From Bacteroidales bacterium (GTDB taxonomy: Bacteria > Bacteroidota > Bacteroidia > Bacteroidales > UBA932), in contig JAFRRA010000004.1 in the NCBI GenBank assembly GCA_017428325.1, forward strand, positions 62,001 through 126,000: a stretch of 64,000 nt of DNA. The letters run 5' to 3'. This document shows positions 14,474-55,514 of this stretch, piece after piece. Made by a program: the position numbers and the translations under genes. How positions within the stretch are numbered: the first letter of the stretch is position 1; each line of letters opens with the position of its first letter. The notes beneath the pieces are model-generated. The model was not told the origin of the DNA and did not search any database. It worked only from the letters and a program-made list of their open reading frames with translations.

Positions 14474-14476
14474 AAA

Positions 14477-15961: not shown

Positions 15962-15970
15962 ATAACCGTT

Positions 15971-17995: not shown

Positions 17996-18011
17996 AGTAT
18001 CTTGTTTATAA

Positions 18012-34277: not shown

Positions 34278-34763
34278 ATGATACTGAACAAACAGGTGGG
34301 TATGTTCCTTAATCTTGTCCACAACCGCTTCAAGCAGTATGTGGCCGGAATCTTCGAGAACGAAGGCCTGAACATAACTCCGGAGCAGTTCCTTGTGATG
34401 GATGCTCTCTGGGACGAGGGAGTCCTCACCCAGCAGCAGATTGCGGATTACCTGCTCAAAGACAAAAACTCCGTGGTGAAACTCGTGGACGGTCTGGAAG
34501 ACAGGAATCTTGTCCGCAGGGCAAGCAACCCTAAAGACCGCAGACAGAACCTCATAGAAGTAACCGAATATGCCATGGGCATAAAGGATAAGGTTACCAA
34601 GGTCGCGATGGATGCCGTAGACAAGATTATCAATGGCATAACCAAAGACGATATGCAGATATTCATCCGGGTGCTGAGCAAAATGGCCGAAAACATGAAC
34701 AACGACATAGACCTTATGGCTCTGGCCGCCAAGTACCCTACCAACAGTAAATTCACAGCGTAA
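34278..34763 (+). CDS. MarR-family transcriptional regulator
   Basis: DNA-binding regulator of 161 residues with the MarR winged-helix layout. The N-terminal dimerisation helix is followed by the recognition-helix region LTQQQIADYLLKDKNSVVKL and the wing with NPKDRRQNLIEVTE, a conserved DRR motif. MarR proteins usually respond to small molecules or thiol oxidation. This protein has no cysteine, so direct cysteine-based redox sensing is unlikely. Its stop codon shares one base with the start of the Hdr-like operon (TAATG). It is therefore almost certainly the local regulator of the redox and cysteate synthase genes, possibly also of itself. Confidence 0.9.
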   Translation: MILNKQVGMFLNLVHNRFKQYVAGIFENEGLNITPEQFLVMDALWDEGVLTQQQIADYLLKDKNSVVKLVDGLEDRNLVRRASNPKDRRQNLIEVTEYAMGIKDKVTKVAMDAVDKIINGITKDDMQIFIRVLSKMAENMNNDIDLMALAAKYPTNSKFTA

Positions 34764-35458
34764 TGGGAAAGCTATACGACAGGCTGATGAAGGATTACAG
34801 GCTACGCGAGGGCCTGAACGCCTGCATAAACTGCGGTACCTGCACTGCCATATGCCCGGCTGCCGAGTTCTACCGCTACGACCCGAGAAGGATTGTGGAT
34901 ATTGTCCAGAAACAGGACGATGCCCAGATTGAGGAGCTTCTCAAGAGCGACACTATCTGGTATTGCGGGGAATGCCTTAGCTGCGTGACAAGATGCCCGA
35001 GAAAGAATGCCGCCGGCCTTATTATAATGGCTCTGCGAAGCCTTTCGATACAGACAGGGCTGTTTATGGAATCCGAAAAGGGACGTCAGATGTATCTTTT
35101 GTGCAAGGATTTGAACAACAATATTCTTAATTACGGTTATTGCGTATATCCAAGAAACTTCAAATATGACGAGCATCTGGAAGCGGGTGTCGTATGGCAA
35201 TGGGTGGAAAAGAATATGGAGGATGTCTTTGACCGTATGGGAGCCAACCTGGACAAGGAAGGTCCGGGAGCTATGAGAAGAATCCCACAGAAGGACCTGG
35301 ATGAACTGAAGAGAATATATGATATTACCGGAGCCACCGAAATGCTTGAAAACGTGAAGAATGCAGGGCTGAAAAAAGCATCTGAGCTCGGCCTCACGGA
35401 AGAAGAGTACTGCAAGAAGATTTACAATGAGTGCAGTCCAAAACATTTCAACCACTAG
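34763..35458 (+). CDS. HdrC-like [4Fe-4S] protein
   Basis: Soluble electron-transfer subunit of 231 residues, like HdrC of heterodisulfide reductase. Two cubane cluster motifs sit in the N-terminal third: CINCGTCTAICP near residues 21-32, and CGECLSCVTRCP near 70-81. Each is C-x2-C-x2-C-x3-CP. The remaining 140 residues are helical and unlike ferredoxins. In known Hdr complexes HdrC passes electrons between HdrA and HdrB; both partners follow directly (HdrB-like after 3 nt). Start ATG overlaps the MarR stop by one base. The partner substrate cannot be read from sequence. Confidence 0.88.
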   Translation: MGKLYDRLMKDYRLREGLNACINCGTCTAICPAAEFYRYDPRRIVDIVQKQDDAQIEELLKSDTIWYCGECLSCVTRCPRKNAAGLIIMALRSLSIQTGLFMESEKGRQMYLLCKDLNNNILNYGYCVYPRNFKYDEHLEAGVVWQWVEKNMEDVFDRMGANLDKEGPGAMRRIPQKDLDELKRIYDITGATEMLENVKNAGLKKASELGLTEEEYCKKIYNECSPKHFNH

Positions 35459-35461
35459 AAG

Positions 35462-36526
35462 ATGATTTACGAAGGAAAAAAGAAAATCTGGGCAGAGTAC
35501 CAGAAAGAGATACCGGAAGACCATTACTTCTATGTAAGAAGCTGCATCAGGCAGTCTTTCTTCCCCGCTTCTGAGGCTACCTTCCTGGACATTACCCGGA
35601 ACAAACTGGGAAAGGACATATTTGAGACCGAGCACCACACTACCTGCGGCGGCATTGCCTATCATTCGGACGCCATTCCGCAGGAGACAGCTATGACTAT
35701 CATAGCCAGGCAGTTTGCACTGATGCACAAATACGGCTATGAAAATTACGTATGCTCCTGCATCACCTCTTTCGGCCTGTACTGCGAGACTCTGGAGACA
35801 TGGAGGGAGTATCCGGAACTCCAGCAGAAAATTGCTGAGAACCTCTGGAAGACCTGCCACCTTGAATTCGCCAAGCCAAAGTTCCTGGTTCACGCCAGCG
35901 ACCTTATCTTCAAATACAGGATGCAGATTGCGGCAAAGAGCAAATTCAAGCTGGTAAACAAGAATACCGGAGAGCCTCTCAGGGTTGTGGAGCATATCGG
36001 TTGCCACTACTCAAAGATGTTCCCTTCCAAAGGCGTGGGAGGAGCAGAGTATCCTTATGTGCTAGTGGGAATGGTAGAAGCCTGGGGCGGCCAAATCGTT
36101 GATTATCCCGAAAGGAGACATTGCTGCGGCTTCGGGTTCAGGCAGTATTTCATAAAGGGCAACCGCGGATACTCGCTTTCCAATACTCACAAGAAATTCG
36201 AGAGTATGGAGCCTTTCAAGCCGGATATGATAATCACAAACTGCCCTGGATGCCCTTATTTCCTGGACAGATGGCAGTATGTTATCGCCGAGACCGAAGG
36301 AAAGACCTACGGGCAGGACGGGCACGGAATACCGGTATTCACCTACGAGGAAGTGGCAGGCCTTGTGATGGGCTACGATCCTTGGGATCTGGGCCTGCAG
36401 ACCCATCAGGTAAGTGTGGAACCACTGCTTGACAAGATTGGAATACCTTACGACCCCGCTAAGAAATATCTGGGCAAGAACGGGAAATATCTCGGTGAGC
36501 CTGAAAAACCACATTGTCTGAAGTAA
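35462..36526 (+). CDS. HdrB-like CCG-domain protein
   Basis: Predicted catalytic subunit of 354 residues, similar to HdrB, which in methanogens carries noncubane [4Fe-4S] clusters that split a disulfide. The C-terminal cysteine-rich motif is canonical: GCHYSK, then CCGFGF in the middle and CPGCPYF at the end. The N-terminal motif is degenerate: Cys28, then Thr61-Cys62 in place of the Cys-Cys pair, then Cys98 and Cys100 as CSC. One noncubane cluster may therefore be altered or missing. A 3-nt gap separates it from the HdrC-like gene and 4 nt from the HdrA-like flavoprotein. Substrate is unknown; it need not be a CoM/CoB disulfide. Confidence 0.86.
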   Translation: MIYEGKKKIWAEYQKEIPEDHYFYVRSCIRQSFFPASEATFLDITRNKLGKDIFETEHHTTCGGIAYHSDAIPQETAMTIIARQFALMHKYGYENYVCSCITSFGLYCETLETWREYPELQQKIAENLWKTCHLEFAKPKFLVHASDLIFKYRMQIAAKSKFKLVNKNTGEPLRVVEHIGCHYSKMFPSKGVGGAEYPYVLVGMVEAWGGQIVDYPERRHCCGFGFRQYFIKGNRGYSLSNTHKKFESMEPFKPDMIITNCPGCPYFLDRWQYVIAETEGKTYGQDGHGIPVFTYEEVAGLVMGYDPWDLGLQTHQVSVEPLLDKIGIPYDPAKKYLGKNGKYLGEPEKPHCLK

Positions 36527-36530
36527 AGTT

Positions 36531-37544
36531 ATGAAAAACAACATATTAGTCATAGGAGGCGGACCTGCCGGACTTGAAGCGTCATCAATCCTGTCCCGTA
36601 TGGGGTATAACGTCATTCTGGCTGAAAAAGAAAAACTGCTGGGCGGCCATCTGGCAAAGTGGGACCGCCTGTTTCCGGACCAGGTTCCGGCAAAGGAAGT
36701 CCTGAATGATATGCTTGGAAGGATGGATGGAGTGAAATGCTTCACCGAAACAAAGGTAAACTCCATCAACCTACTGGAAAATTCATATAATGCCATGCTT
36801 TCCAACGGAATAACCGTTCTGGCGGATGCTGTTCTGCTGGCCAGCGGATTCGATCTGTTCAAGGCAGAGAAAAAAGAGGAATACGGCTACGGCATTTATG
36901 AGGGAGTGCTGACCAACGCAGACCTGGAAAAGGCGTTCCAGGAAGGGAAGAAGAGTTCCCCTGCTCCACGTGCCATAGGATTCGTCCATTGCGTGGGAAG
37001 CAGAGATGAAAAAGCCGGCAATCCGGCCTGTTCAAAGGTATGCTGCGCAACCGCTGTAAAACAGGCAATTGAAACCAAAGAACTCTATCCTGAGGCTGAC
37101 GTGTACTGTTTCTATATGGATCTGAGAATGTTCGGACGCCACTACGAGGACCTTTACCTCAGGGCGCAGAAATCAGGCATCAGGTTCATAAGGGGAAGAG
37201 TAAGCGAGGTGGCTGAAACCGCTGAAGGGAGACTTCTGGTCAAGGCGGAAGACACCCTTTCCAGCAAACCGTTGAAAGTCACCCTGGACCGCCTGGTTCT
37301 GATGGCAGGGATGAGGCCGTCAAAGACCGGCCACGATGTGGGCAGGCAGCTGAACCTGAGCATTGAGGATGACGGATTCTTCTCAGCGAAGGATGGACTG
37401 CAGAATCTCCAGAAGAGCAAACTCCCGGGATTTTTCTATGCAGGAGCCTGCACCGGTCCAAAGACCCTTCCTGACACCCTTCACGAGGCCCGCAGCGCTG
37501 CAATGGAGATAGACAGGTACATCAAAGAAAACTTCAGGAAATGA
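36531..37544 (+). CDS. Short HdrA/QmoA-like FAD oxidoreductase
   Basis: Flavoprotein of 337 residues. It starts with the FAD dinucleotide motif VIGGGPAGLEASSIL and has an HdrA-type core, visible as FVHCVGSRDEKAGNPACSK with CCATAVKQA, then YMDLRMFGRHYEDLY. The C-terminal part has FFYAGACTGPKTLPDT, also typical of HdrA. It is much shorter than methanogen HdrA (about 650 residues) and has no ferredoxin domains of its own. It is closest in size to the QmoA-type subunits of membrane-linked complexes. Flavin-based bifurcation needs more partners and cannot be claimed. The stop overlaps the next gene (ATGA at 37541-37544). Confidence 0.86.
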   Translation: MKNNILVIGGGPAGLEASSILSRMGYNVILAEKEKLLGGHLAKWDRLFPDQVPAKEVLNDMLGRMDGVKCFTETKVNSINLLENSYNAMLSNGITVLADAVLLASGFDLFKAEKKEEYGYGIYEGVLTNADLEKAFQEGKKSSPAPRAIGFVHCVGSRDEKAGNPACSKVCCATAVKQAIETKELYPEADVYCFYMDLRMFGRHYEDLYLRAQKSGIRFIRGRVSEVAETAEGRLLVKAEDTLSSKPLKVTLDRLVLMAGMRPSKTGHDVGRQLNLSIEDDGFFSAKDGLQNLQKSKLPGFFYAGACTGPKTLPDTLHEARSAAMEIDRYIKENFRK

Positions 37545-37867
37545 TAGACTTCGGATTCAGTGTCAGCCCCAGTTCGAGAATAAACCTCGATAACGCGGAC
37601 AAGGAGAAATTCGCCCGTCTGGCCATCGCTGAGCCTGATGTGCTCAAATGCATGGCCTGCGGAAGCTGCACTGCCAGCTGCACTGCCGGCGCCTTTGAAG
37701 ACACCAGCCTTAGAAGAGCTATCCTTTCTCTCCAGAACGGACTCAGCGATGATGCTTCCAAACTATTGAGTCACTGTATGTTGTGTGGGAAATGCACTAT
37801 GGTTTGTCCAAGAGGCATAAATACCCGCCACCTCATATTGTCGATACAAAAAATCTACTCCCTATGA
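37541..37867 (+). CDS. Small two-cluster [4Fe-4S] protein (second HdrC-like subunit)
   Basis: The 108-residue protein carries two [4Fe-4S] motifs, CMACGSCTASCTAG near residues 37-50 and CMLCGKCTMVCPRG near 79-92. The first lacks the usual proline after the fourth cysteine (CT instead of CP). Its size and position between an HdrA-like and an HdrD-like gene suggest an electron bridge to the membrane subunit, like HdrC2 in sHdr systems. It overlaps both neighbours by 4 nt (ATGA at 37541 and 37864), indicating tight translational coupling and fixed stoichiometry. Confidence 0.84.
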   Translation: MIDFGFSVSPSSRINLDNADKEKFARLAIAEPDVLKCMACGSCTASCTAGAFEDTSLRRAILSLQNGLSDDASKLLSHCMLCGKCTMVCPRGINTRHLILSIQKIYSL

Positions 37868-39768
37868 TCCATCTTCTGTCAGCCACAGTGCATCAGATTA
37901 CACCGGAAGGGATCATAGACAGATACCCTAACAGCTACAATCATTTTGTACTGCCTTTTGTAATTGGAATAACCTTTATCCTGATTTACCTTTTCATAGG
38001 TCTGATCAGGATACTTTACCACCTGAGCGGAGAAGACAGGATCAAGCTCCTCAAATCCCTGTTCAACCCAAAGACCGCCTGGAAAAACATAAAGGATATA
38101 TTCTGCGACTGCCTGCTGCACACCAAGATATGGAAGAGAAAGCCACTTCTGGGCTACATGCATTCGGCGATAGCTTTCGGATGGTTCCTGCTTATCGTGG
38201 TCGGACATATAGAGGTATGGCTTTTTGCTCCGAGACATCTCTCAGGACTTACAGAGGGCTCTCTTTACTACCCTATTTTCTACAGGTTCTTCATCTGGAT
38301 TAATCCGGCTCACGAAACCCTCAGGGGCTCCGTGTTCTTCTTCATAATGGATTTCCTGCTGCTGTACGTCCTCAGCGGCATCGGACTGGCCATGTTCAAG
38401 AGAGTCAGATCCATAGCCCTGGGAATGAGACACACCACCAAGCCATCGCTGGCAGACCGCATTGCGCTTTACTGCCTGTGGCTGATTTTTCCACTAAGGC
38501 TTCTGGCAGAAGGTTTTACCGCTGACCTTAGCGGAGGAGGATTCCTGACAAGACCGCTCAACTGGGTGTTCAGGGCATTCTTCGGTAACGAGCTGAATTT
38601 CCTCCCGACCTGGTGGGCCTATTCCATCTGCCTGGGACTCTTCTTCATTGCTATGCCGTTCTCCCGCTATATGCACATCCTGACCGAGCCGCTGCTGATT
38701 CTTTTCCGCAACGCCGGCCTGAAAGTGCGTCATCCGAGAAAGGGATTCGCCGAGGCCGAGATCTACGCCTGCTCAAGTTGCGGACTCTGCCTGGATGCAT
38801 GCCCGATGAATGCACAGAAGAAGAACCTCAAATACTCGTCCGTATATTTCATACGTTTCTTGCGCAGGCATAACAAGAAGAAAACCAAAGAGATAGCAGA
38901 AAAGTGCCTGATGTGCGGCAAATGCTATGCGCTCTGCCCTGTAGGAGTCAATTCCCCTGCTATCAGAAGAGCCATAAGGGAAACCCAGAACAATTCCATT
39001 AATTGTAACTACTCCTATCTCGACACTTACGCGGGCAAGGCGGCTGAAGTCCTTTCAGATAAAACCAGAGGAAAGATTCTCTACTTTGCCGGTTGCATGA
39101 GCCATCTTACACCAAAGATCATAAAGTCCATGGAAACAATTCTCCAGGCCAGCGGCCAGGAATATGAATTCATGGACCGCAATGAGGGCATCTGCTGCGG
39201 AAGGCCTCTGATGCTTGCCGGAAGAACTGATGCGGCACGCAAGACCATTGAGGCCAACACCAAGATAATCAAGGACTCCGGATGTACCATCCTGCTCCTG
39301 TCCTGCCCTATCTGCCTCAAGATATTCAAGGAGGAATACTCCCTGAAAGGCATTGAGGTTATCCACTATACCCAGTTCATAGACAGGCTCATTAAGGAAG
39401 GGAAACTGAAGGTTTCAAAATCATCTTCAGCGATAGTTTATCACGACCCTTGCGAACTTGGAAGAGGCTGCGGCATTTACGAAGAGCCAAGGAATGTACT
39501 TAGAGCTGTCGCTGAGTTAAAGAAGGCTTCAAAGGAAAAGGACGAGAGCATATGCTGCGGCTACAGTCTGGGGACACTGACATTGGACGAGAAAGACAAG
39601 GCAAAGATTGCGGAGAGTTCCGTTTCCAGCCTTATGGCTGAGGATCCGGAAGAGATTGTCACCGCCTGCCCTATGTGCTACAGGGCCATAAGGAGCAAGG
39701 CGGAAGTTCCAGTCAAGGACTTCGCCGAGATTGTTTGCGAGAGAATTGAAAACAATGATAAAAACTAA
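37864..39768 (+). CDS. Membrane-bound HdrD-like Fe-S reductase with HdrE/NarI-like N-terminus
   Basis: The protein has 634 residues from the ATG at 37864, which overlaps the preceding stop by ATGA; a reading frame open further upstream is out of register with that gene and was not used. The first 290 residues form several membrane helices with histidines that could bind heme b (YMHSAIAFGW, VVGHIEVWL, RYMHILTEPL), like HdrE, NarI or DsrM. Two [4Fe-4S] motifs follow, CSSCGLCLDACP near 302 and CLMCGKCYALCP near 347. Two CCG domains complete the protein, with ICCGRPLM near 443 and CCGYSLG near 562; each ends in a CPxC motif. It probably exchanges electrons between menaquinone and a thiol/disulfide or sulfur substrate. 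Confidence 0.88.
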   Translation: MIHLLSATVHQITPEGIIDRYPNSYNHFVLPFVIGITFILIYLFIGLIRILYHLSGEDRIKLLKSLFNPKTAWKNIKDIFCDCLLHTKIWKRKPLLGYMHSAIAFGWFLLIVVGHIEVWLFAPRHLSGLTEGSLYYPIFYRFFIWINPAHETLRGSVFFFIMDFLLLYVLSGIGLAMFKRVRSIALGMRHTTKPSLADRIALYCLWLIFPLRLLAEGFTADLSGGGFLTRPLNWVFRAFFGNELNFLPTWWAYSICLGLFFIAMPFSRYMHILTEPLLILFRNAGLKVRHPRKGFAEAEIYACSSCGLCLDACPMNAQKKNLKYSSVYFIRFLRRHNKKKTKEIAEKCLMCGKCYALCPVGVNSPAIRRAIRETQNNSINCNYSYLDTYAGKAAEVLSDKTRGKILYFAGCMSHLTPKIIKSMETILQASGQEYEFMDRNEGICCGRPLMLAGRTDAARKTIEANTKIIKDSGCTILLLSCPICLKIFKEEYSLKGIEVIHYTQFIDRLIKEGKLKVSKSSSAIVYHDPCELGRGCGIYEEPRNVLRAVAELKKASKEKDESICCGYSLGTLTLDEKDKAKIAESSVSSLMAEDPEEIVTACPMCYRAIRSKAEVPVKDFAEIVCERIENNDKN

Positions 39769-39773
39769 ATTAT

Positions 39774-41060
39774 ATGGAAATCAAACCGACTAGCTACCGC
39801 CTGGAAAACTGCTTGACCCACAGAGTGTTCAACGACACCGGATGGCTTATGTCAGACCCGGAGGATTCCCGCCCTTCCCTCGTAAGGGCAATCTATGACA
39901 AGAAACAGATTGAGTTCAAGGATCCGTCTTTCGGATTATACAGGTTCTCCGACTGGCTGCCTGTAAGCCGCGCTCTCAAAGGATCCTGCGCCCCTGTAAC
40001 CTACCGCAGCGAGCACCTGGCAAAGAAACTGGGTCTCAATAACCTATACATCACATACAGCGGATGGTGGCCTGAGAAAGGCGCAACTATGCGCACCTGT
40101 TCTTTCAAGGAAACTGAAGCCTATTCCGTATGCGGAAGGCTGTCCGCAGACAACAAGAGAATCCTGGTGGTTGCCTCCGCCGGCAACACGGCAAGGGCTT
40201 TCTCCCAGGTATGTTCGGACAACAACATACCTCTGGTGATTGCCATACCGGAAGACAACTTGGACGCCCTTTGGTTCAAGGACAGGCTAAACGACTGTGT
40301 AAAAGTGATCTGTCCTCCTAAAGGAAGCGACTATTTCGACGCCATTGCACTGGCTGCCAAACTCAACGCCTCCCCTATGTTCCTGGAAGAAGGAGGAGCC
40401 AAGAACGTGGCCAGGAGAGACGGAATGAGCACAACCGTCCTCTCAGCCGCAGAAGTGATAGGACGGATACCGGACGCCTATTTCCAGGCCGTCGGAAGCG
40501 GCACGGGAACAATCGCCGCATATGAGGCCAATCTTCGCCTTCTGGAAGACGGGCGCTTCGGAGACAACCTTATGAAGCTCATTCCTTCCCAGAACGTTCC
40601 GTTCACCCCTATGTACGATGCGTGGAAAGCACTTAGCCGTAACCTGTTGCCAATGGATGACAATGAAGGCAGGCTAAAAGCCCTTCAGATCAAGGCTTCT
40701 GTCCTCAGCAACCGTAAACCGCCTTTCGCCGTTCCAGGAGGCCTGTTCGACGCCCTTATGGCTACCCGGGGAGACTTCCAGAAAGTCACCAACGGAGAGC
40801 TTACGGATGCTTGCGACATGTTCGCAGAACTCGAAGGCAGCGATATACATCCGGCCGCCGGAGTAGCCGTGGTCAGCCTGGCAAAGGCCCTTAAGGAAGG
40901 CCAGATAACCCCAGACCAGACCATTATGCTTAACGTTACCGGAGGCGGAGAAAAACGCTTCAAGAAAGAGTTTAACTACGTAAACGCAAAGGCAGACCTT
41001 ATCCTCTCTCCTGACTGCAGCGCCACGGAAGTAATAGACAAGGTAACTGCACTGTTCTAG
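39774..41060 (+). CDS. Cysteate synthase (PLP-dependent)
   Basis: Predicted to make L-cysteate from O-phosphoserine and sulfite. The 428-residue protein is related to threonine synthase but matches the cysteate synthase pattern known from Methanosarcina: WWPEKGATMRTCSFKETEAY with the PLP lysine at 112, VASAGNTARAF for the phosphate loop, and GGAKNVARRDGMST and PDAYFQAVGSGTGTIAAYE further on. In methanogens cysteate leads to coenzyme M; in Bacteroidota it starts sulfonolipid (capnine) synthesis. No other sulfonolipid gene is visible here. The ATG is 5 nt after the Hdr-like operon's last stop, and a terminator follows. Threonine synthase is the main alternative and is less likely. Confidence 0.85.
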   Translation: MEIKPTSYRLENCLTHRVFNDTGWLMSDPEDSRPSLVRAIYDKKQIEFKDPSFGLYRFSDWLPVSRALKGSCAPVTYRSEHLAKKLGLNNLYITYSGWWPEKGATMRTCSFKETEAYSVCGRLSADNKRILVVASAGNTARAFSQVCSDNNIPLVIAIPEDNLDALWFKDRLNDCVKVICPPKGSDYFDAIALAAKLNASPMFLEEGGAKNVARRDGMSTTVLSAAEVIGRIPDAYFQAVGSGTGTIAAYEANLRLLEDGRFGDNLMKLIPSQNVPFTPMYDAWKALSRNLLPMDDNEGRLKALQIKASVLSNRKPPFAVPGGLFDALMATRGDFQKVTNGELTDACDMFAELEGSDIHPAAGVAVVSLAKALKEGQITPDQTIMLNVTGGGEKRFKKEFNYVNAKADLILSPDCSATEVIDKVTALF

Positions 41061-41872: not shown

Positions 41873-42105
41873 GAAACGAAAACGGACCAGTGTTTTTAGC
41901 CGGCCATGTTATCAGCGCTTTGTAACAAAAAATTAGCAACAGCCGGAAGAATGGCCCCGTTAACATATTGTTTCAGATTGGAAGGATTTGAAATGTAAAA
42001 TCCTTGTGATTTCGCAGTATTATTGTGAAAATAATTACGGAATTGAAGAAATTTGTCTTATCTTTAACCCCTGAAAACAATATAGAAAAGCATTACCGTT
42101 GTTTT

Positions 42106-44013
42106 ATGAAAATATCGTCTATTGAGGATTTGAAGAAAATCCGTGAAAGAGCGAGTGTTCACCTGAAGCCACGCGAGCAGAGCGACCATCAGGACTCTTC
42201 TGCAACCTGTGGCCTGAAGAAGGGAACACCTAAAATACAGATCCTGACCTGCGGTGGTACAGGATGCAAGGCTTCTCAAAGCCATCTTATCGCCGATAAT
42301 TTCAAGAAACTGATTGCAGACAACAATCTTGAAGGCAAGGTTGAGGTCATCACTACAGGCTGCTTCGGTTTCTGCGAAAAAGGCCCTATTGTTAAAATAA
42401 TACCGGACAACACCTTCTATACAAAGGTTAAGCCTGAGGATACGGAAGAGATCTTCACCACGCACATCATTGGCGGAAAGAGAGTCAACAGGCTGCTGTA
42501 TGTGGATCCGAAGCGCAAGACTACAGTATCCGACTCAAAGCACATGGACTTCTACCGCAAGCAGGTCAGAATCGCTTTGAGAAACTGCGGACTCATTGAC
42601 CCTGAGGATATTGTGGAGTATATAGCTCGCGACGGATACTTTGCCCTCGCAGACTGTCTCCTCAACCGCAGCCCTAAAGCCGTGATTGACGAAATCAAGA
42701 AGTCCGGCCTCAGGGGAAGAGGCGGCGGAGGATTCCCTACCGGCCTCAAGTGGGAGATTGCTTCCAAGAACCAGTCAAAGGAGAAATATGTAGTCTGCAA
42801 TGCCGACGAGGGAGACCCTGGAGCATTTATGGACCGTTCCATCATGGAAGGAGATCCTAACTCTATCGTCGAGGCTATGGCAATCTGCGGTTATGCAATT
42901 GGAGCCAACCATGGCCTGGTTTACATCAGGGCAGAGTATCCTCTTGCTGTCGAGCGTCTTAAGATTGCCATCAAGCAGGCTAGGGAACTCGGTCTTCTCG
43001 GAAAGAAGATCCTTGGAACTTCATTCTCATTCGACATAAATATCAGATACGGTGCGGGAGCATTCGTATGCGGAGAAGAGACCGCCCTTATCCACTCTAT
43101 GGAAGGCCGCAGAGGAGAACCTACCCTCAAGCCGCCGTTCCCTGCAGAAAGCGGATACAACGGCAAGCCAACCAACGTGAACAATGTCGAGACCTTTGCA
43201 AACGTCCCAATCATCATCAACAAGGGAGCGGACTGGTTCGCCTCTATCGGAAGCGACCGTTCCAAGGGAACCAAGGTGTTCGCACTTGCCGGAAAGATCA
43301 ACAACGTAGGTCTGATCGAAGTCCCTATGGGAACCACACTTAGAGAGGTTATCTTCGATATCGGAGGCGGAATCAAGGGCGGCAAGCAGTTCAAGGCTGT
43401 TCAGACCGGAGGCCCTTCAGGAGGATGCCTTACGGAGAAGCACCTGGATACCCCTATCGATTTCGACACTCTTACCGCCGCCGGCAGTATGATGGGTTCC
43501 GGAGGTATGATCGTAATGGACGAAGACAACTGTATGGTTTCCGTAGCCCGTTTCTATCTCGACTTTATCGTTGGAGAGTCCTGCGGAAAATGTACTCCTT
43601 GCCGTATCGGCAACAAGAGGATGCTGGAAATCCTGGACAAGATCATTGCCGGAAACGGAACTATGCAGGATCTTGAAAAACTCAAGACTCTTGCCGGAGT
43701 CATCAAGGACACAGCGCTTTGCGGACTCGGGCAGACTTCCCCAAACCCTGTTCTCTCCACTCTGAGCAATTTCTGGGACGAGTATGTGGAGCACGTCAGG
43801 GACAAGAAGTGCCGCGCAAAGCAGTGCAAGGCCCTGCTCACCTACGTGATCAATCCTGAGAAGTGTATCGGCTGCCACGCCTGCGCAATGGGTTGTCCTG
43901 CCGGAGCTATCGAGGGCGTTCCGAGAAAGCCTCACGCAATCATCTTCTCAAAGTGCATCAAGTGCGGAATGTGCATGTCTCGATGCAAGTTCAAAGCAGT
44001 TTCAGTTGTCTAA
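42106..44013 (+). CDS. hydB: NADH-dependent [FeFe] hydrogenase flavoprotein subunit HydB (NuoF-like)
   Basis: HydB binds FMN and NADH and links NAD(H) to the [FeFe] hydrogenase. The ATG at 42106 (635 residues, MKISSIEDLKKIRERAS) is preferred because HydB-type proteins begin here; an in-frame ATG at 42025 adds 27 unrelated residues. An N-terminal thioredoxin-like [2Fe-2S] domain has CGGTGCKAS and CFGFCEKGP. The NADH/FMN domain shows GLRGRGGGGFPTGLKWE and NADEGDPGAFMDR. An N3-type [4Fe-4S] motif is SCGKCTPCRIGNKR, and two C-terminal ferredoxin clusters are CIGCHACAMGCP and CIKCGMCMSRC. This layout is that of electron-bifurcating HydABC enzymes. hydA follows after 12 nt. Confidence 0.94.
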   Translation: MKISSIEDLKKIRERASVHLKPREQSDHQDSSATCGLKKGTPKIQILTCGGTGCKASQSHLIADNFKKLIADNNLEGKVEVITTGCFGFCEKGPIVKIIPDNTFYTKVKPEDTEEIFTTHIIGGKRVNRLLYVDPKRKTTVSDSKHMDFYRKQVRIALRNCGLIDPEDIVEYIARDGYFALADCLLNRSPKAVIDEIKKSGLRGRGGGGFPTGLKWEIASKNQSKEKYVVCNADEGDPGAFMDRSIMEGDPNSIVEAMAICGYAIGANHGLVYIRAEYPLAVERLKIAIKQARELGLLGKKILGTSFSFDINIRYGAGAFVCGEETALIHSMEGRRGEPTLKPPFPAESGYNGKPTNVNNVETFANVPIIINKGADWFASIGSDRSKGTKVFALAGKINNVGLIEVPMGTTLREVIFDIGGGIKGGKQFKAVQTGGPSGGCLTEKHLDTPIDFDTLTAAGSMMGSGGMIVMDEDNCMVSVARFYLDFIVGESCGKCTPCRIGNKRMLEILDKIIAGNGTMQDLEKLKTLAGVIKDTALCGLGQTSPNPVLSTLSNFWDEYVEHVRDKKCRAKQCKALLTYVINPEKCIGCHACAMGCPAGAIEGVPRKPHAIIFSKCIKCGMCMSRCKFKAVSVV

Positions 44014-44025
44014 AACAGCCTCATT

Positions 44026-45789
44026 ATGAAACAGAATATATCACTGATAATAGATAATCACAAAGTCGTTGTCCCGGAAGGCACAACGATACTCGACGCT
44101 GCCAAGAGCATAGGAATCGTCATCCCTACGCTTTGCCACATGAACCTCAAGGGAACCTGCGCTGACAACCATCCGGCTTCCTGCCGCGTCTGCGTTGTGG
44201 AAGTCAAGGGCAGAAGAAACCTGGCCCCTGCCTGCAGCACCGCCTGCACAGAGGGTATGGAGGTAAAGACCAGCTCCATTAGGGTAATCAGGGCCCGCAA
44301 GACTGTCATTGAGCTCATGCTCAGCGACCACCCTAACGAGTGCCTTACCTGCCCTAAGAGCGGAAAGTGCGAGCTTCAGGCAGTTACCCAGCATCTTGCA
44401 ATCAACGAGACTCCTTATGCAGGAGAACTGTCGCTGAGAAAGAAGGAGATGACAGCATCCATCGTCAGGAATATGGACAAGTGCATATACTGCCGCAGAT
44501 GCGAGACTATGTGCAATGTCTACCAGACCGTTGGCGCTCTCGGAGCTGTTGGAAGAGGTTTCAACACCACCATCGCCCCTTCTTTCAACCGCAACCTCAA
44601 GGATACGGACTGCACATACTGCGGCCAGTGCGTTGCAGTATGCCCTGTAGGAGCTCTTACGGAAAGGACTTATACAGACCAGCTTATAGATGACCTGGAG
44701 AATCCTGAAAAGACCGTTATCGTCCAGACCGCCCCTGCTGTAAGGGTTGCCCTCGGCGAAGAGTTCGGAAACGCTCCGGGCAGCATCGTGACCGGCAAAC
44801 TGGTTGCTGCTCTCAAGGATCTGGGATTCGACTATGTCTTCGATACCGATTTCTCTGCAGACGCAACCATAATGGAGGAAGGCAGCGAGCTTCTGGAAAG
44901 GCTCACCAAGTTCCTGAAGGGAGACAAGAGCGTTCCTATTCCTCTGATGACTTCCTGCTGCCCTGCATGGGTTAACTTCTACGAGCATAACTTCCCGGAT
45001 CTTCTCCAGTATCCTTCAACGGCCCGTTCACCGCAGCAGATGTTCGGAGCCATTGCAAAGAACTACTGGGCAGAGAAGATGAACATTCCGCGCGAGAAAC
45101 TGGTTGTTGTTTCCGTAATGCCTTGTCTTGCAAAGAAATTCGAGTGCCAGAGGCCTGAGTTCGCCACCAACGGCAATCCGGATGTAGATTATTCAATCAC
45201 TACCAGGGAACTTGCAACCCTCATACGCAGGTCCAACATCAACTTCGAGACCCTGCCTCACATGGAATTCGACAATCCTCTTGGAGAAAGCACTGGCGCA
45301 GCTGCTATCTTCGGATCTACCGGCGGAGTGCTTGAAGCAGCCCTCAGGACCGCTTACGAGCTCCACACAGGCAAACCTCTTCCTAAGATAGACTTCACCG
45401 AAGTAAGGGGTATCGACAGCCTCAGGACAGCTACTATCGATTTCGACGGTTTTGCCCTCAACGTTGCCATTGCCTACGGCCTGGGTAACGCCCGTAAGCT
45501 GATGGAAGAGATCAGGGCCGGCAAGTGCAAGTACCACGTAATCGAGATCATGGCCTGCCCGGGCGGCTGCATCGGCGGCGGCGGACAGCCACTCCATCAC
45601 GGAGACTTCGAGATTATCAAGGCCCGCCAGAAGGCAATCTATGAGGAAGACAAGAACATGCCTCTAAGAAAGAGCCACGAGAACAAGAGCATTATTGAGA
45701 TGTACGAGAAGTATTTCGGCAAGCCTCTCAGCGAAAAGGCACACGCCCTTCTCCACACCCATTACTCAGACAAAACAATCAAGTACTAG
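44026..45789 (+). CDS. hydA: [FeFe] hydrogenase catalytic subunit HydA
   Basis: HydA reduces protons to H2 at the H-cluster. The 587-residue protein has an N-terminal [2Fe-2S] ferredoxin domain (TLCHMNLKG, CRVCVVEVKG), a His-ligated [4Fe-4S] site (HPNECLTCPKSGKCELQ), and two cubane motifs, CIYCRRCETMCN and CTYCGQCVAVCPVG. All three H-cluster signatures are intact: TSCCPAWVNF, MPCLAKKFE, and EIMACPGGCIGGGGQP. The lone C-terminal extra domain seen in some group A3 enzymes is not evident. With HydB and HydC this forms a trimer that in characterised relatives uses NADH and reduced ferredoxin together. It should accept electrons from the lysine route. Confidence 0.96.
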   Translation: MKQNISLIIDNHKVVVPEGTTILDAAKSIGIVIPTLCHMNLKGTCADNHPASCRVCVVEVKGRRNLAPACSTACTEGMEVKTSSIRVIRARKTVIELMLSDHPNECLTCPKSGKCELQAVTQHLAINETPYAGELSLRKKEMTASIVRNMDKCIYCRRCETMCNVYQTVGALGAVGRGFNTTIAPSFNRNLKDTDCTYCGQCVAVCPVGALTERTYTDQLIDDLENPEKTVIVQTAPAVRVALGEEFGNAPGSIVTGKLVAALKDLGFDYVFDTDFSADATIMEEGSELLERLTKFLKGDKSVPIPLMTSCCPAWVNFYEHNFPDLLQYPSTARSPQQMFGAIAKNYWAEKMNIPREKLVVVSVMPCLAKKFECQRPEFATNGNPDVDYSITTRELATLIRRSNINFETLPHMEFDNPLGESTGAAAIFGSTGGVLEAALRTAYELHTGKPLPKIDFTEVRGIDSLRTATIDFDGFALNVAIAYGLGNARKLMEEIRAGKCKYHVIEIMACPGGCIGGGGQPLHHGDFEIIKARQKAIYEEDKNMPLRKSHENKSIIEMYEKYFGKPLSEKAHALLHTHYSDKTIKY

Positions 45790-45806
45790 CCTAAAACAGA
45801 ATAGAT

Positions 45807-46283
45807 ATGGAAAAATTGTGCAACTCTGTCGTTGAAAAGATTAGGGCTATCTGTGACAAATTCGGAAACAAACCGGGAGAGCTTATCAACATACTTCACG
45901 AGTCCCAGCATACTGTGGGCTACCTTCCAATGGAAGTTCAGGCCATCATCGCCGAGAAACTCCACATCCCTGTCAGCAGGGTTTACGGTGTGGTTACCTT
46001 CTACACTTTCTTCACTATGGTTCCAAAAGGCAAGCATCCTGTTTCAGTTTGCCTTGGTACCGCCTGCTATGTAAGGGGTGCGGAGAAGATCCTGGAAGAA
46101 TTCAAGAGAACCCTTGGCATTGATGTCGGAGAAACCACCGAAGACGGACGCTTCTCCCTTGACTGTCTCAGATGCGTCGGCGCATGCGGCCTTGCCCCTG
46201 TGGCAATGGTTGGAGAGAAGGTATACGGCCACCTCAACCCTGCAGATATCAAGAAAATCATCAAGGATTTCTCCCAGGACTAG
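45807..46283 (+). CDS. hydC: Hydrogenase subunit HydC, NuoE-like [2Fe-2S] protein
   Basis: Thioredoxin-fold electron carrier of 158 residues, the third subunit of the HydABC hydrogenase. The [2Fe-2S] ligands are the four cysteines in CLGTACYVRG and CLRCVGACG. The N-terminal helical region contains ILHESQHTVGYLPMEVQ and VYGVVTFYTFFTM, both typical of NuoE/HndA. It starts 17 nt after hydA. The order hydB-hydA-hydC differs from the hydC-hydB-hydA seen in Thermotoga, but subunit content is complete. Confidence 0.94.
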   Translation: MEKLCNSVVEKIRAICDKFGNKPGELINILHESQHTVGYLPMEVQAIIAEKLHIPVSRVYGVVTFYTFFTMVPKGKHPVSVCLGTACYVRGAEKILEEFKRTLGIDVGETTEDGRFSLDCLRCVGACGLAPVAMVGEKVYGHLNPADIKKIIKDFSQD

Positions 46284-48849: not shown

Positions 48850-49992
48850 TTACTTCTTGAACAATTTGGCGGCAATAACCATTCTCTGAACTTCTGAGGT
48901 ACCCTCGTAGATCTCGGTGATCTTGGCGTCCCTCATCATTCTCTCGACAGGATATTCCCTTGTGTAACCGTAACCTCCGTGGAACTGGACAGCCTTGGTA
49001 GTCATATCCATGGCTGTCTCGGCTGCAAAGAGCTTAGCCATAGCTGCGTCTGCACTGAAAGGCATTCCGTGATCCTTCTTCCAGGCTGCTGCCCTGACGA
49101 GGTATCTTGCTGCCTCGATTCTGGTCTGCAGGTCTGCAAGCTGGAACTGGGTGTTCTGGAACTGGCTCAGCGATTTTCCGAACTGCTTCCTTTCCTTGCA
49201 GTACTTTACGGTCTCGTCCATAGCGCCCTGAGCGATACCCAGAGCCTGAGCGGCGATACCGATACGTCCGCCATCCAGAGTCTTCATCGCAACAGCGAAT
49301 CCGCCACCGAGAGGGCCGAGCATATTTGCCTTAGGAACCCTGCAGTTCTCGAAAATGAGCTCGCAGGTAGCGCTGCCCCTGATACCCATCTTGTGTTCCT
49401 TCTTTCCGATGGAGAAGCCAGGAGTTGTAGCCTCCACGATGAAGGTGGTGATGCCCTTGTTGCCCTTGGACTTGTCTGTCATTGTGGCAATTACATAGAC
49501 ATCAGCCTCACCGGCGTTGGTGATGAATATCTTGGTTCCGTTGAGGATGTAGTCGTCTCCGTCTGTAACAGCCATAGTCTGCTGTGCGGAAGCGTCTGTT
49601 CCGGCGTTAGGCTCGGTAAGGCCGAAGGCTCCGATCCACTCGCCGCTGGCAAGCTTAGGGATGTACTTTTGCTTCTGCTCCTCGGTTCCGTTGTCAAGGA
49701 TAGCGTCCTCGCAGAGGGAAGTATGAGCGGAAACGATAACGCCTGTAGTTGCACAAACTCTTGAAAGCTCCTCTACTGCAATGGTGTACATTACGTGGTC
49801 TCCACCTGCTCCGCCGTAAACCTTAGGAGTCGGGATACCCAGTACGCCGAGCTTTCCGAGCTTCTTGATATTCTCCGTAGGGAATTTCTCTTCCTCGTCC
49901 ACTTCTGCAGCGATAGGCTTCACCTCCTTGTCGGCGAACTCCTTGATCATCTGCTGGAAGAGCTTCTGGGATTTAGTAAGTTCGAAATCCAT
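48850..49992 (-). CDS. bcd: Butyryl-CoA (short-chain acyl-CoA) dehydrogenase
   Basis: Reduces crotonyl-CoA to butyryl-CoA (the reverse of the oxidative direction in other bacteria) with ETF. The 380-residue protein has FGLTEPNAGTDAS for substrate and FAD contacts. The C-terminus has HGGYGYTREYPVERMMRDAK and then EIYEGTSEVQR, where the Glu of YEGTSE is the catalytic base of short-chain dehydrogenases. The neighbours etfA and etfB support the Bcd/Etf role. Spacing on both sides is 12 nt. Confidence 0.93.
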   Translation of the reverse strand: MDFELTKSQKLFQQMIKEFADKEVKPIAAEVDEEEKFPTENIKKLGKLGVLGIPTPKVYGGAGGDHVMYTIAVEELSRVCATTGVIVSAHTSLCEDAILDNGTEEQKQKYIPKLASGEWIGAFGLTEPNAGTDASAQQTMAVTDGDDYILNGTKIFITNAGEADVYVIATMTDKSKGNKGITTFIVEATTPGFSIGKKEHKMGIRGSATCELIFENCRVPKANMLGPLGGGFAVAMKTLDGGRIGIAAQALGIAQGAMDETVKYCKERKQFGKSLSQFQNTQFQLADLQTRIEAARYLVRAAAWKKDHGMPFSADAAMAKLFAAETAMDMTTKAVQFHGGYGYTREYPVERMMRDAKITEIYEGTSEVQRMVIAAKLFKK

Positions 49993-50004
49993 ATTGTTAA
50001 ATTT

Positions 50005-50670
50005 CTAAAGTTCTATCTTTTTCAAATCCGGTGAAATGATAAGCGTAGCCTCGGTTGCGGCCTGAACCTGCTCAACAGTGAATTCAGGGTTGATTTCGCT
50101 GAGGACGATTCCTTCCGGGGTAATGTTCATTACACCCATCTCGGTGATGATCATATTGACCTGTCCTGCTGCTGTAAGAGGCAAATGGCACTTCTTCAGG
50201 ATCTTAGGGTTGCCCTTCGCAGTGTGCTCCATCGTGAGGATAACTCTGTTGGCACCAACCAGAAGGTCCATGGCGCCACCCATTCCAGGAGCTCTCTTTC
50301 CAGGGATGATCCAGTTTGCAAGGTCACCCTTCTCGTCAACTTCCAGAGCGCCGAGGAAGGTTACATTGATGTGGCCTCCGCGAACCATACCGAAGCTGGT
50401 AGCGGAGTCGAAGGATGCGGCACCTGCCTCGTGGGAAATGTATCCGCCACCGGCATCGATCCAGTGAGGATCCCTTGTTCCGCCGGAAAGTGCAGGATCT
50501 GCAGCCATTCCAAGGCATCCGTTCTCAGACTGGATTGTCACAGTCACTCCCTCAGGGAGATAGTTAGGAATAAGGGTAGGAAGACCGATACCCAGATTCA
50601 CAACGTCACCGTCCTTTACTTCCAGGGCAGCACGCTTGGCAATAAACTCTCTAATTTGCTGTTTATCCAT
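50005..50670 (-). CDS. atoA: Acetate/butyrate:acetoacetate CoA-transferase beta subunit
   Basis: One half of a class I CoA-transferase, 221 residues. The catalytic glutamate is in SENGCLGMAADPA near residue 50, and the start has FIAKRAALEVKDGDVVNLGI. It should swap CoA between butyryl-CoA and acetoacetate, freeing butyrate and giving acetoacetyl-CoA. The alpha subunit is encoded at the operon's other end (59204-59878), 8.5 kb away, which is unusual for a pair normally adjacent. It sits 31 nt after kamE. Confidence 0.9.
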   Translation of the reverse strand: MDKQQIREFIAKRAALEVKDGDVVNLGIGLPTLIPNYLPEGVTVTIQSENGCLGMAADPALSGGTRDPHWIDAGGGYISHEAGAASFDSATSFGMVRGGHINVTFLGALEVDEKGDLANWIIPGKRAPGMGGAMDLLVGANRVILTMEHTAKGNPKILKKCHLPLTAAGQVNMIITEMGVMNITPEGIVLSEINPEFTVEQVQAATEATLIISPDLKKIEL

Positions 50671-50701
50671 AATCGAATATTTAATGAATTAATATTGTTA
50701 G

Positions 50702-51490
50702 TTACTTATTGTTCCTTTTAACGAATTCCTCAGCGATGAAGCTAGCCACATCATCAGCATAGGTGTTGGTGCCGAATCCTGCGTCATATCCAAGCTCCTT
50801 TGCAAGCTCGTGACTGATACGGGCTCCGCCGCAGACCACTATCATCTTGTCTCTCAATCCCTCAGCGTCCATAAGCTCGATGAGGTTGGTCAGGTTCTGG
50901 ATATGCACGTCCTTCTGCGTTACAGTCTGGCTTACAAGAAGCGCATCCGCCTTGAGCTCGATGGCCCTTGCCAGGAACTCCTCGTTCGGAACCTGGCTGC
51001 CAAGGTTGTATGCCTCGATCATCCTGTAACGCTCCAGACCATAGTGTCCGGCATATCCCTTCATATTCATAATCGCGTCTATACCTACCGTGTGGGCATC
51101 GGTTCCGGTGCTGGCTCCAACCACCACCAGAGGGCGTCCGATTTTTTCCTGAATGAAATCGTCGCAAGCCTCCATGCTCATAGTCTTGGATTCTACCTTT
51201 GGTACGTATATGTCTGCGTAATTAACTGTCATAGTGCTGCTTCCGTAGCAGTTGAAGAAGGTGAAGCCCGGTGTAAGCTCCTGGGAGAACACTACCAGAG
51301 GGTTCTCGAATCCCATCTTCTTCAGCAGCTGCTTTGCGGCCTCGATGGCTTCCGGACCGGCCGGAACAGGGAGGGTGAAACTGAGCTGCACCTTGCCGTC
51401 GTTCATCGTATCTCCGTACGGCTTCACTTTCTTAAGGTCAAGAGTCTTGTCGTAATTCTTGGCCTCCATTGAATATAGACCTTCACTCAT
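50702..51490 (-). CDS. kamE: Beta-lysine 5,6-aminomutase beta subunit KamE
   Basis: KamE binds adenosylcobalamin and, with KamD, moves the terminal amino group of beta-lysine to carbon 5. The 262-residue protein has the cobalamin motif with D-x-H-x-x-G in STGTDAHTVGIDAIMN, followed by MKGYAGHYGLERYRM. The PLP lysine of the family lies upstream in this region but was not pinned to one residue. Adjacent kamD and reactivase genes support it. The reading frame is 2 nt from kamD. Confidence 0.94.
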   Translation of the reverse strand: MSEGLYSMEAKNYDKTLDLKKVKPYGDTMNDGKVQLSFTLPVPAGPEAIEAAKQLLKKMGFENPLVVFSQELTPGFTFFNCYGSSTMTVNYADIYVPKVESKTMSMEACDDFIQEKIGRPLVVVGASTGTDAHTVGIDAIMNMKGYAGHYGLERYRMIEAYNLGSQVPNEEFLARAIELKADALLVSQTVTQKDVHIQNLTNLIELMDAEGLRDKMIVVCGGARISHELAKELGYDAGFGTNTYADDVASFIAEEFVKRNNK

Positions 51491-51492
51491 AT

Positions 51493-53052: not shown

Positions 53053-53082
53053 ATTCAGTCAGTTAGTCGTGAAGTACTTATA

Positions 53083-54486: not shown

Positions 54487-54487
54487 C

Positions 54488-55504
54488 CTAAATATTGTCT
54501 CCGTTTTTAACTATATCATATACAGGCACTTGTACTGCCTCATACATTTTCTTGCACAATAGGTCCGAATCCAGCACGATACCCCGTGGAGAAACCGGAT
54601 TGACGCATACGGCTATCAGCCTGCTGCGTCTAGTCACCCTGAGCCTTCCCCCTTTCCTGAGAAAGATTCTCCAGTTCTGCTCATTGACGAATATCTTGGT
54701 GAAATCTCTCACCACCAGCTCGATCTCCTTTACTCTCCTGGAGTCTGAAATCAAGCCCAGGAACCTGTCCGTCAAAGCTCCCGCTACGAAAACCGCCTCG
54801 CATCTTCCCGTCAGATCATCCTTGATCCTGTCTATGGCAAGGGAGGACTCCACCTGGAAATCTATGATATTCCCCTCACTGTCCATTCCCCATACGCCCT
54901 TTTCCTTGCCGTCAAAGGCAGATCGGTACTTTTCCTCTGCCATATCCAGCCGCACCAGTTCCACAATGAACTTTGTCCTTCTTACAAGGGTCTCCAAATC
55001 AGCCGAATAGGCCGCACCCGTCGTAAGTATCAGACTTTCACTGATAATGGGAGAAGCGCTGCTCAGCCTTGAAAGCGCCCCGTCCACTATCGTAAGGTCC
55101 GGCGTGAACTTCTCCACGCTCTGGACCCATCTGGAAAGGGATTGGGCAGACGAAGGTCCGCTCAGCATCACCTTTCCCCCTCTCACCACGCGGGCAGTGA
55201 CTATCCTGCCCAATGAACTTCTCTCGGAAGTAATCTCCAGAAGATCGCTGAGAAGTTGCCTTCTGGCGTAAAAGACTTCTGAAGTTGAGAATATTGTACC
55301 TTCCTTGAGTATTATCTCAGGCTTGGCCGTTCCGGTCACCTGATCCTTGCTCTCCCCGTCTATCCCGATAGAGGTTACCGCCACGTGAAAGGATGACGGT
55401 AACCTTTCCAGGATATAATTCAGGCACACTGTCTTTCCGGTGTTCTTCTCCAGCCCTACTATCGAGAGGCTTTTGAGGTTTTGTATCTGACCGATGAAAG
55501 ACAT
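54488..55504 (-). CDS. kamB: Lysine 5,6-aminomutase reactivase subunit KamB
   Basis: The 338-residue protein begins with a P-loop-like segment, SIVGLEKNTGKTVCLNYIL, which resembles nucleotide-binding proteins although the spacing is not the textbook Walker A. It occupies the kamB position (kamA-kamB-kamC-kamD-kamE) known from Fusobacterium and Clostridium. It is assigned on this synteny and length. It probably cooperates with KamC to restore inactivated aminomutase. The gap to kamA is 10 nt, and to kamC 1 nt. Confidence 0.82.
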   Translation of the reverse strand: MSFIGQIQNLKSLSIVGLEKNTGKTVCLNYILERLPSSFHVAVTSIGIDGESKDQVTGTAKPEIILKEGTIFSTSEVFYARRQLLSDLLEITSERSSLGRIVTARVVRGGKVMLSGPSSAQSLSRWVQSVEKFTPDLTIVDGALSRLSSASPIISESLILTTGAAYSADLETLVRRTKFIVELVRLDMAEEKYRSAFDGKEKGVWGMDSEGNIIDFQVESSLAIDRIKDDLTGRCEAVFVAGALTDRFLGLISDSRRVKEIELVVRDFTKIFVNEQNWRIFLRKGGRLRVTRRSRLIAVCVNPVSPRGIVLDSDLLCKKMYEAVQVPVYDIVKNGDNI

Positions 55505-55514
55505 TGCGCATCAG

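Follow-up and report, generated by a model that had tools for sequence, protein, structure and literature searches.

Sulfonolipids are bioactive bacterial relatives of sphingolipids. Cysteate synthesis consumes sulfite and phosphoserine, and in many bacteria sulfite is made by CysH, a reductase of 3'-phosphoadenosine-5'-phosphosulfate (PAPS) or adenosine-5'-phosphosulfate (APS). The phosphoserine is sulfonated by CapA, and gut Bacteroidota use an archaeal-type cysteate synthase (PMC10191378). Sulfur-oxidising systems related to heterodisulfide reductase (Hdr), termed sHdr, oxidise sulfur to sulfite (PMC11582611, PMC10332631). Two sHdr-LbpA types have been described: type I comprises shdrC1B1AHC2B2, type II shdrC1B1AHB3 and etfAB (PMC11582611). 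LbpA is encoded with sHdr and is linked to it as a rule (PMC10332631, PMC6067878). The present analysis concerns a stretch of 64,000 nucleotides (nt), hereafter the window, from contig 3 of a Bacteroidales assembly (GCA_017428325.1; 1.95 Mb, 88.9 % complete). In it, genes for a MarR-family regulator, five Hdr-type proteins and a cysteate synthase form one run on the + strand in the order MarR-HdrC-HdrB-HdrA-HdrC2-HdrDE-cysteate synthase, with gaps of at most 5 nt by open reading frame (ORF) coordinates (Table 1). The evidence argues strongly that the Hdr set belongs with sulfonolipid synthesis. The best-supported reading, which we consider moderately probable, is that it encodes an sHdr-like complex without LbpA, linked to menaquinone, which provides the sulfite for cysteate synthesis.

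The seven-gene run is real and conserved. From HdrC to cysteate synthase its order is repeated in relatives of the same genus and the same family, in some of them with MarR ahead. In a sample of 59 genomes of the window's family, HdrB was found in 25, cysteate synthase in 25 and both in 20, and in 18 of these 20 the two lie at most 8 kb apart. The run is therefore not due to chance. An earlier note on this DNA, made from the sequence alone, had described the Hdr-like genes as following each other with overlaps of 1-4 nt or gaps of 3-4 nt and cysteate synthase as beginning 5 nt after the membrane protein. Both statements are borne out by the coordinates, and the last gene exceeds the equivalog cut-off of the cysteate synthase model TIGR03844 (452.4 bits over model positions 6-396 of 398; cut-off 324.9). 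For HdrDE, the ATG at 37864, which gives an ATGA overlap with HdrC2 and a protein of 634 amino acids (aa), was preferred over the GTG at 37783 of the mechanical ORF.

In its core the set resembles sHdr-LbpA. It shares the order C1-B1-A-C2 followed by a CCG subunit, the short HdrA and, by analogy, the proposed product sulfite. The best PDB match of HdrA is 6tjr, which we take to be Hyphomicrobium sHdrA (349-aa chain; 195.6 bits over residues 4-326 of 337). The comparison with sHdr drawn in the earlier note was right in kind: HdrC, HdrB and HdrA are 47, 41 and 42 % identical to C1, B1 and A of a C1-B1-A-C2-B2 set from Picosynechococcus PCC 7003, whose HdrC2 is 35 % identical to that of the window over 71 aa. 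This set lies with a flavin adenine dinucleotide (FAD) oxidoreductase gene on a plasmid (L227, 8242-13982), the best of four HdrB-bearing records in the plasmid collection, and its gene order suggests a true sHdr. The Picosynechococcus HdrB1 also shares with the HdrB of the window a first cluster site reduced to three cysteines. In the window these are C28, C62 and C100, and the second CCG site is complete (C181, C221, C222, C261, C264); both sites are kept in 87 of 87 homologues and are also invariant in alignment A1, which includes the window's own sequence. Each of the eight cluster cysteines of HdrC is kept in 80 or 81 of 81 homologues, and the four HdrA cysteines listed in Table 1 in 82 of 82. 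Because of the short HdrA, the identity to a C1-B1-A set and the common three-cysteine site, the C-B-A core appears from its sequence to be of the sHdr kind, with a fifth gene encoding a membrane fusion in place of B2/B3. Unlike in sHdr-LbpA, no gene separates HdrA from HdrC2 at the place of sHdrH, the two overlapping by 4 nt, and a cytochrome-b-like/Fe-S/CCG membrane fusion replaces B2/B3. Instead of the etfAB of type II, HdrDE is followed by cysteate synthase and, at a greater distance, by a hydrogenase. Hdr loci of the window type have no LbpA-like gene linked to them; these loci are linked to lipid biosynthesis, and their hosts are Bacteroidales. Since linked LbpA, sHdrH and the B2/B3 features were not found, we do not class the set as an sHdr member.

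The connection to sulfonolipids was examined in 198 Bacteroidales genomes from 120 families, mostly one or two per family. Presence was called at 154 bits or more for HdrB (two of the 66 hits are fragments), at 359 bits or more for SulA (next score class 248), at E < 1e-25 for PF01507, over the cut-off for TusA, and for cysteate synthase over the TIGR03844 cut-off with one contig-cut fragment added. All absence counts, here and below, are subject to the incompleteness of metagenome-assembled genomes. The five-gene Hdr core recurs across the order, mostly without cysteate synthase: HdrB is strong in 66 genomes, cysteate synthase is present in 52 (51 over the cut-off and the fragment), and 22 have both. 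The overlap, 22 of 66 Hdr genomes, does not exceed chance (p=0.12), and adjacency of HdrB and cysteate synthase was seen only in the window's family. Thus, the conserved adjacency that the earlier note expected holds within this family and has not been seen in the rest of the order sample, where Hdr genes occur mainly without cysteate synthase, the very outcome that the note had named as speaking against its proposal. Cysteate synthase was rejected as a general Hdr partner.

Across the order, the decisive partner of Hdr is not cysteate synthase but SulA, the acyl-ACP transferase acting on cysteate that commits the pathway to sulfonolipids. SulA was found in 141 of the 198 genomes, in 63 of the 66 with Hdr versus 78 of the 132 others (p=1.3e-8). 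When only the first-listed genome of each family is counted, 37 of 38 Hdr genomes have SulA (p=2.8e-5), and when two genomes carrying only an HdrC-HdrB paralogue are excluded, 61 of 64 (p=3e-8). Within the window's family, SulA accompanies Hdr in 25 of 25 genomes sampled (24 of 24 once a genome with only the paralogue is set aside), and Hdr is missing from all 26 genomes that lack SulA. The earlier note had suggested looking for a sulfonolipid acyltransferase in the same genomes, and it is this enzyme that rescues the link, because SulA rather than cysteate synthase accompanies Hdr across the order. The identity of SulA was assessed in two ways. The best PDB match of the SulA-type neighbour of Hdr in distant families is 7u7h (636 bits), and the next is an entry named cysteate-C-fatty acyltransferase. 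A lysine (Lys281) in place of an alanine of serine palmitoyltransferase (Spt) is diagnostic for SulA (PMC9304779). It is present in the SulA encoded outside the window in the same genome (RSQIYAKSLP), in eight Hdr-linked SulA proteins and in 38 labelled at SulA loci. The own-genome sulA is overlapped by a ketoreductase-like gene of the short-chain dehydrogenase/reductase (SDR) family. As in the described Bacteroidota pathway (archaeal-type cysteate synthase, SulA/CapB, ketoreductase CapC/KCR), this genome encodes a cysteate synthase along with SulA and a ketoreductase-like SDR.

At three loci the genes form a nine-gene run VOC-SulA-SDR-HdrC-HdrB-HdrA-HdrC2-HdrDE-cysteate synthase with gaps of at most 37 nt. 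One (L012) belongs to the window's family, the other two (L212, L217) to named assemblies. In the HdrB tree, the loci linked to cysteate synthase and six of the seven others linked to SulA form separate supported clades; the seventh, L025, groups among the loci linked to cysteate synthase. This means that the linkage arose more than once, or that it is old and was often lost. An ordinary neighbourhood, in which an Hdr of energy metabolism is co-regulated or merely adjacent and its association with SulA reflects ancestry and lifestyle, would agree with the many Hdr loci not beside recognised sulfonolipid genes, with the relatedness by descent of the genomes sampled and with the fact that PF01507 associates with SulA, too. 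It is, however, the least probable of the explanations considered: the association persists with one genome per family, the HdrB clades are separate, the nine-gene runs exist, and a control gene behaves differently. TusA, about as frequent as Hdr, was rejected as a co-occurring sulfur carrier and served as this control. It is associated neither with SulA (57 of 78 genomes with TusA versus 84 of 120 without, p=0.75) nor with Hdr (p=0.88).

A glyoxalase/VOC-fold protein of 350-360 aa and the SDR travel with SulA at L012, L117, L128, L212 and L217. The VOC-fold protein beside SulA reaches no NCBIfam cut-off and may be a new part of the sulfonolipid pathway. Since VOC and SDR genes accompany SulA and Hdr at some loci, the complex could also be imagined to exchange electrons with the VOC protein or with an oxidation or reduction of the acyl chain, unrelated to sulfite. 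We regard this as very unlikely. Assays of the ketoreductase used NADPH (PMC11211663), no other redox step is described between phosphoserine and capnine, and the Hdr sets of the window's family mostly stand with cysteate synthase but apart from SulA.

For a role in sulfite supply, the distribution of PF01507 (CysH/CysD family) is instructive. The genome of the window, at its 88.9 % completeness, has no match to this family. In the order sample, Hdr is present in 19 of 25 SulA genomes that have no strong PF01507 match versus 44 of 116 that have one (p=7e-4), and in none of the 26 genomes that lack both SulA and PF01507. Furthermore, at least eight genomes have a PF01507 gene of CysH length no more than 3.1 kb from SulA, and six of these lack Hdr; the number eight, from coordinates compared by eye, is a lower bound. 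Of the six SulA-neighbouring proteins in Hdr-less genomes, two were scanned, and both exceed the cysH cut-off. The 40 SulA neighbourhoods inspected were chosen by hand and give no rates: 20 come from genomes without strong PF01507, and the other 20 are PF01507-positive and Hdr-less, including the six with a CysH-like gene already visible near SulA. As either Hdr or CysH is found in sulfonolipid clusters, the simplest common function is sulfite supply. Together with the SulA association and the nine-gene runs, the enrichment of Hdr in genomes without PF01507 upholds the tie to sulfonolipid synthesis that the earlier note had proposed, by way of SulA and not through cysteate synthase as a general partner.

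The same genes could serve sulfite or thiol homeostasis, with the complex running in the reducing direction and clearing surplus or toxic sulfite, or disulfides, in the vicinity of cysteate synthase. Hdr-type enzymes are able to reduce disulfides, sulfite is toxic, and the 44 SulA-positive Hdr genomes that also carry CysH/CysD-family genes would fit. This explanation is nevertheless quite unlikely, because Hdr is enriched most where such genes are missing, which fits supply better than removal, and because sHdr, the closest relatives that have been characterised, form sulfite by oxidising sulfur (PMC11582611, PMC10332631).

A zinc-ribbon, threonine-synthase-like enzyme of the pyridoxal phosphate type was found with SulA and either Hdr or CysH at four loci (Table 1). 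Two members scanned reach 108 and 120 bits with TIGR03844 (cut-off 325), and none of the 198 genomes has both a true cysteate synthase and this enzyme (score class 84-134 bits). It is a candidate for a second cysteate synthase.

The membrane protein HdrDE has about five hydrophobic segments forming a cytochrome-b-like part, two [4Fe-4S] sites and two complete CCG sites. All cluster cysteines as well as His86, His100 and His271 (634-aa numbering) are invariant in 78 of 78 aligned sequences, an alignment with residue numbers 24 higher that may hold a second copy of the window's own protein. No NarI-type Pfam family is among the matches listed in the scan of window proteins. With Hdr-like subunits and a cytochrome-b-like part, presumably linked to a quinone, the set resembles QmoABC. 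A Qmo-like complex would pass menaquinol electrons to APS reductase (AprAB), and the sulfite for cysteate would come from sulfate. This would likewise yield sulfite beside SulA, the membrane part is of the kind found in QmoC and HdrE, and sulfate-permease-family genes occur in some relatives, where a SulP gene follows cysteate synthase or, in L076, a gene for a CysP-like PiT permease precedes Hdr. Membership in Qmo was rejected, since there is a single HdrA-like gene where QmoABC has two, and the QmoC model on HdrC reaches 43 bits, far under its cut-off of 300. In addition, HdrC, HdrB and HdrA are of the sHdr kind, no aprAB was recognised beside Hdr in the window, and neither aprA nor sat is among the families listed in a scan confined to operon neighbours (25 of 132 families, matched by at least three of 150 neighbours). 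Altogether, we consider a Qmo-like function unlikely. The methanogen enzymes HdrABC and HdrDE share with the window the HdrB/HdrC/HdrA family and the HdrDE-like membrane fusion. Unlike them, the HdrA of the window has 337 aa (643-671 in PDB chains), there is no coenzyme M/B context in the window, and its proteins remain below the methanogen NCBIfam equivalog cut-offs (HdrA2 model 246 of 1100 bits, HdrB 136 of 450, HdrC 86 of 350).

We return to the membrane-anchored, menaquinone-linked relative of the sHdr complex with a biosynthetic job that the five genes would encode. HdrB, HdrC and the flavoprotein HdrA would oxidise sulfane sulfur or sulfide-derived, thiol-bound sulfur to sulfite. The electrons would pass from HdrC2 to the Fe-S part of HdrDE, through its b-type membrane part to menaquinone and on to, e.g., fumarate. 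Cysteate synthase would combine this sulfite with phosphoserine where it arises, and SulA and the ketoreductase would then convert cysteate to capnine, the sulfonolipid base. The genome encodes menA and a menG/ubiE-type gene over the TIGR cut-offs. With menaquinone as the acceptor, turning sulfide into sulfite is favourable (about -24 kJ/mol, computed from redox potentials), and with NAD+ it is unfavourable, which would explain the need for a membrane exit. What is observed is the set of genes and their operon-like spacing, the link of Hdr to both SulA and cysteate synthase, the conservation of the cluster ligands, the missing PAPS-reductase-family match and the presence of menA and menG. The chemistry and the direction in which it runs are inferred, as are the quinone, the heme, the sulfur carrier and control by MarR.

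Several observations weigh against this reading. Hdr is absent from 78 of the 141 SulA genomes, and three Hdr genomes lack SulA (G022, 99 % complete; G156, 76 %; G164, 82 %). Most of the Hdr loci inspected have no recognised sulfonolipid gene alongside, and among the SulA genomes of the order sample Hdr and cysteate synthase occur independently of each other (p=0.72). Of the 25 genomes with SulA but no strong PF01507, six have no Hdr either, and in the window's family G217, G235, G252, G231 and G249 have SulA and cysteate synthase with neither Hdr nor strong PF01507. Conversely, Hdr occurs in two of the at least eight SulA-CysH genomes, and the 44 SulA genomes with both Hdr and PF01507 imply that Hdr is not merely a substitute. 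SulA is found in 116 of 147 genomes with strong PF01507 versus 25 of 51 without (p=1.2e-4), which fits a need for sulfite; part of this association may reflect lifestyle. The SulP gene after cysteate synthase in some relatives belongs here as well. As to sulfur carriers, the window's genome has no TusA match. No GcvH-like sequence was found at the loci except in L208, 9 kb off, and on an Acidithiobacillus plasmid (L228), in a search with one GcvH query that a very distant LbpA could escape and that leaves room for an unlinked LbpA elsewhere. The genome itself encodes one full GCV_H protein adjoining menA and one weak domain hit, neither on the contig of the hdr genes.

Among the best 80 of at least 594 named HdrB loci, those closest in HdrB come from uncultured Bacteroidales assemblies, many of rumen or gut origin, and the carriers include Candidatus Merdivivens, Candidatus Cryptobacteroides and Alistipes sp. 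In this set, cysteate synthase lies within the flank of 28 HdrB loci. By ORF calls, HdrC, HdrA and HdrDE are within 8 kb of HdrB in 67 of 88 loci. Nine of the other 21 are HdrC-HdrB pairs without HdrA and HdrDE (L027, L028, L057, L060, L061, L064, L065, L066 and L071); these paralogues form a clade of their own in the HdrB tree (support 98/96), and several adjoin NUBPL/Mrp-type ATPases, dinitrogenase-cofactor-like small proteins and OsmC-like proteins. In L152-L160 and L163, HdrB is 85-88 % identical to that of the window, and no cysteate synthase lies in the flank (L155 spans only 3.8 kb). Their neighbours, read as a GTPase and a metalloprotease without a family call, are uninformative on the role of Hdr.

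Table 1. Coordinates of the seven-gene run and of further features (window positions, unless a locus number is given)
Feature	Position	Strand	Remarks
MarR-family regulator	34278..34763	+	161 aa; 1-nt overlap with hdrC; Pfam MarR 47 bits
HdrC (sHdrC1-like)	34763..35458	+	231 aa; two [4Fe-4S] sites; Fer4_8 and HdrC models
HdrB (sHdrB1-like), proposed catalytic subunit	35462..36526	+	354 aa; gap 3 nt; CCG domain
Short HdrA (sHdrA-like), FAD protein	36531..37544	+	337 aa; gap 4 nt; C154, C167, C171, C172
HdrC2	37541..37867	+	108 aa; 4-nt overlap; two [4Fe-4S] sites; Fer4_9/HdrC models
HdrDE membrane fusion	37864..39768	+	634 aa; two CCG stretches (Pfam)
Cysteate synthase (archaeal type)	39774..41060	+	428 aa; gap 5 nt; TIGR03844
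Zinc-ribbon threonine-synthase-like enzyme	L086:11411-12640, L072:15449-16669, L029:2946-4202, L025:8622-9941		
HydB-HydA-HydC	42025-46283		NADH-dependent [FeFe] hydrogenase, group A6
Histidine-degradation-like row	13247-19721		
Lysine-fermentation-like genes	48850-56849		

MarR homologues precede HdrC in several relatives, and a MarR protein 38 % identical to that of the window is encoded after SulA-ketoreductase in G101/L117. MarR may regulate the Hdr operon. In L037, L063, L082, L083, L088, L090 and L092, the place of MarR immediately before the Hdr genes is taken by a histidine kinase and a LuxR-type response regulator, a pair that might sense sulfur or redox state. MetVF, an Hdr partner of the acetogen type, had been considered for neighbours of 316 and 214 aa and was rejected, as their sequences are those of the histidine kinase and the LuxR-type regulator. 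Downstream of cysteate synthase, the window encodes the hydrogenase HydB-HydA-HydC, parts of which are shared by the close relatives L145-L147. Elsewhere, it contains a histidine-degradation-like row (amidohydrolase, aromatic amino acid lyase, urocanase, formiminotransferase-cyclodeaminase) and lysine-fermentation-like genes (lysine 2,3-aminomutase, D-lysine 5,6-aminomutase, acyl-CoA dehydrogenase), among which a MutS-domain protein is encoded.

Unlike the described sulfonolipid pathway, the clusters contain an Hdr complex here and CysH in other lineages. A term search of three sulfonolipid papers (PMC9304779, PMC11211663, PMC10191378) found no mention of sulfite. Marine strains including Bacteroidota carry a 'complete set' of Hdr sulfur-oxidation genes, read as sulfide detoxification (PMC11129491). 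Like the window's host, these are Bacteroidota with Hdr genes, and Bacteroidota kin make capnine lipids; in the available excerpt of that paper, no link between Hdr and lipids is drawn. In the literature searched, which omits most subscription papers and all bioRxiv preprints, the combinations sulfonolipid with heterodisulfide, sulfonolipid with sulfite and cysteate, and heterodisulfide reductase with Cryptobacteroides were not found. Cysteate synthase and heterodisulfide reductase do appear together in six papers, judged by titles to concern methane-metabolising archaea.

Sulfonolipids are bioactive lipids not only of gut but also of environmental Bacteroidota, and the enzymes acting after cysteate are already known. 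The present findings suggest that anaerobic Bacteroidales of gut and rumen oxidise reduced sulfur to make the sulfite of a lipid head group, and not for energy. More tentatively, and with somewhat less confidence than in the reading itself, the complex may represent a third, assimilatory sHdr branch, independent of LbpA and coupled to menaquinone, by which strict anaerobes would turn sulfide-level sulfur into sulfite for the sole purpose of building a lipid head group, and which would be interchangeable in function with CysH within sulfonolipid clusters. If true, this would supply the sulfite source for sulfonolipids in anaerobes without CysH/CysD genes and extend the sHdr family from energy metabolism to biosynthesis, without a linked LbpA and with a quinone exit. 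Anaerobes would then have a route to organosulfonate that starts from sulfide and bypasses sulfate, with sulfur oxidation coupled to membrane lipid synthesis, and one could predict which gut and rumen bacteria turn sulfide into organosulfonate.

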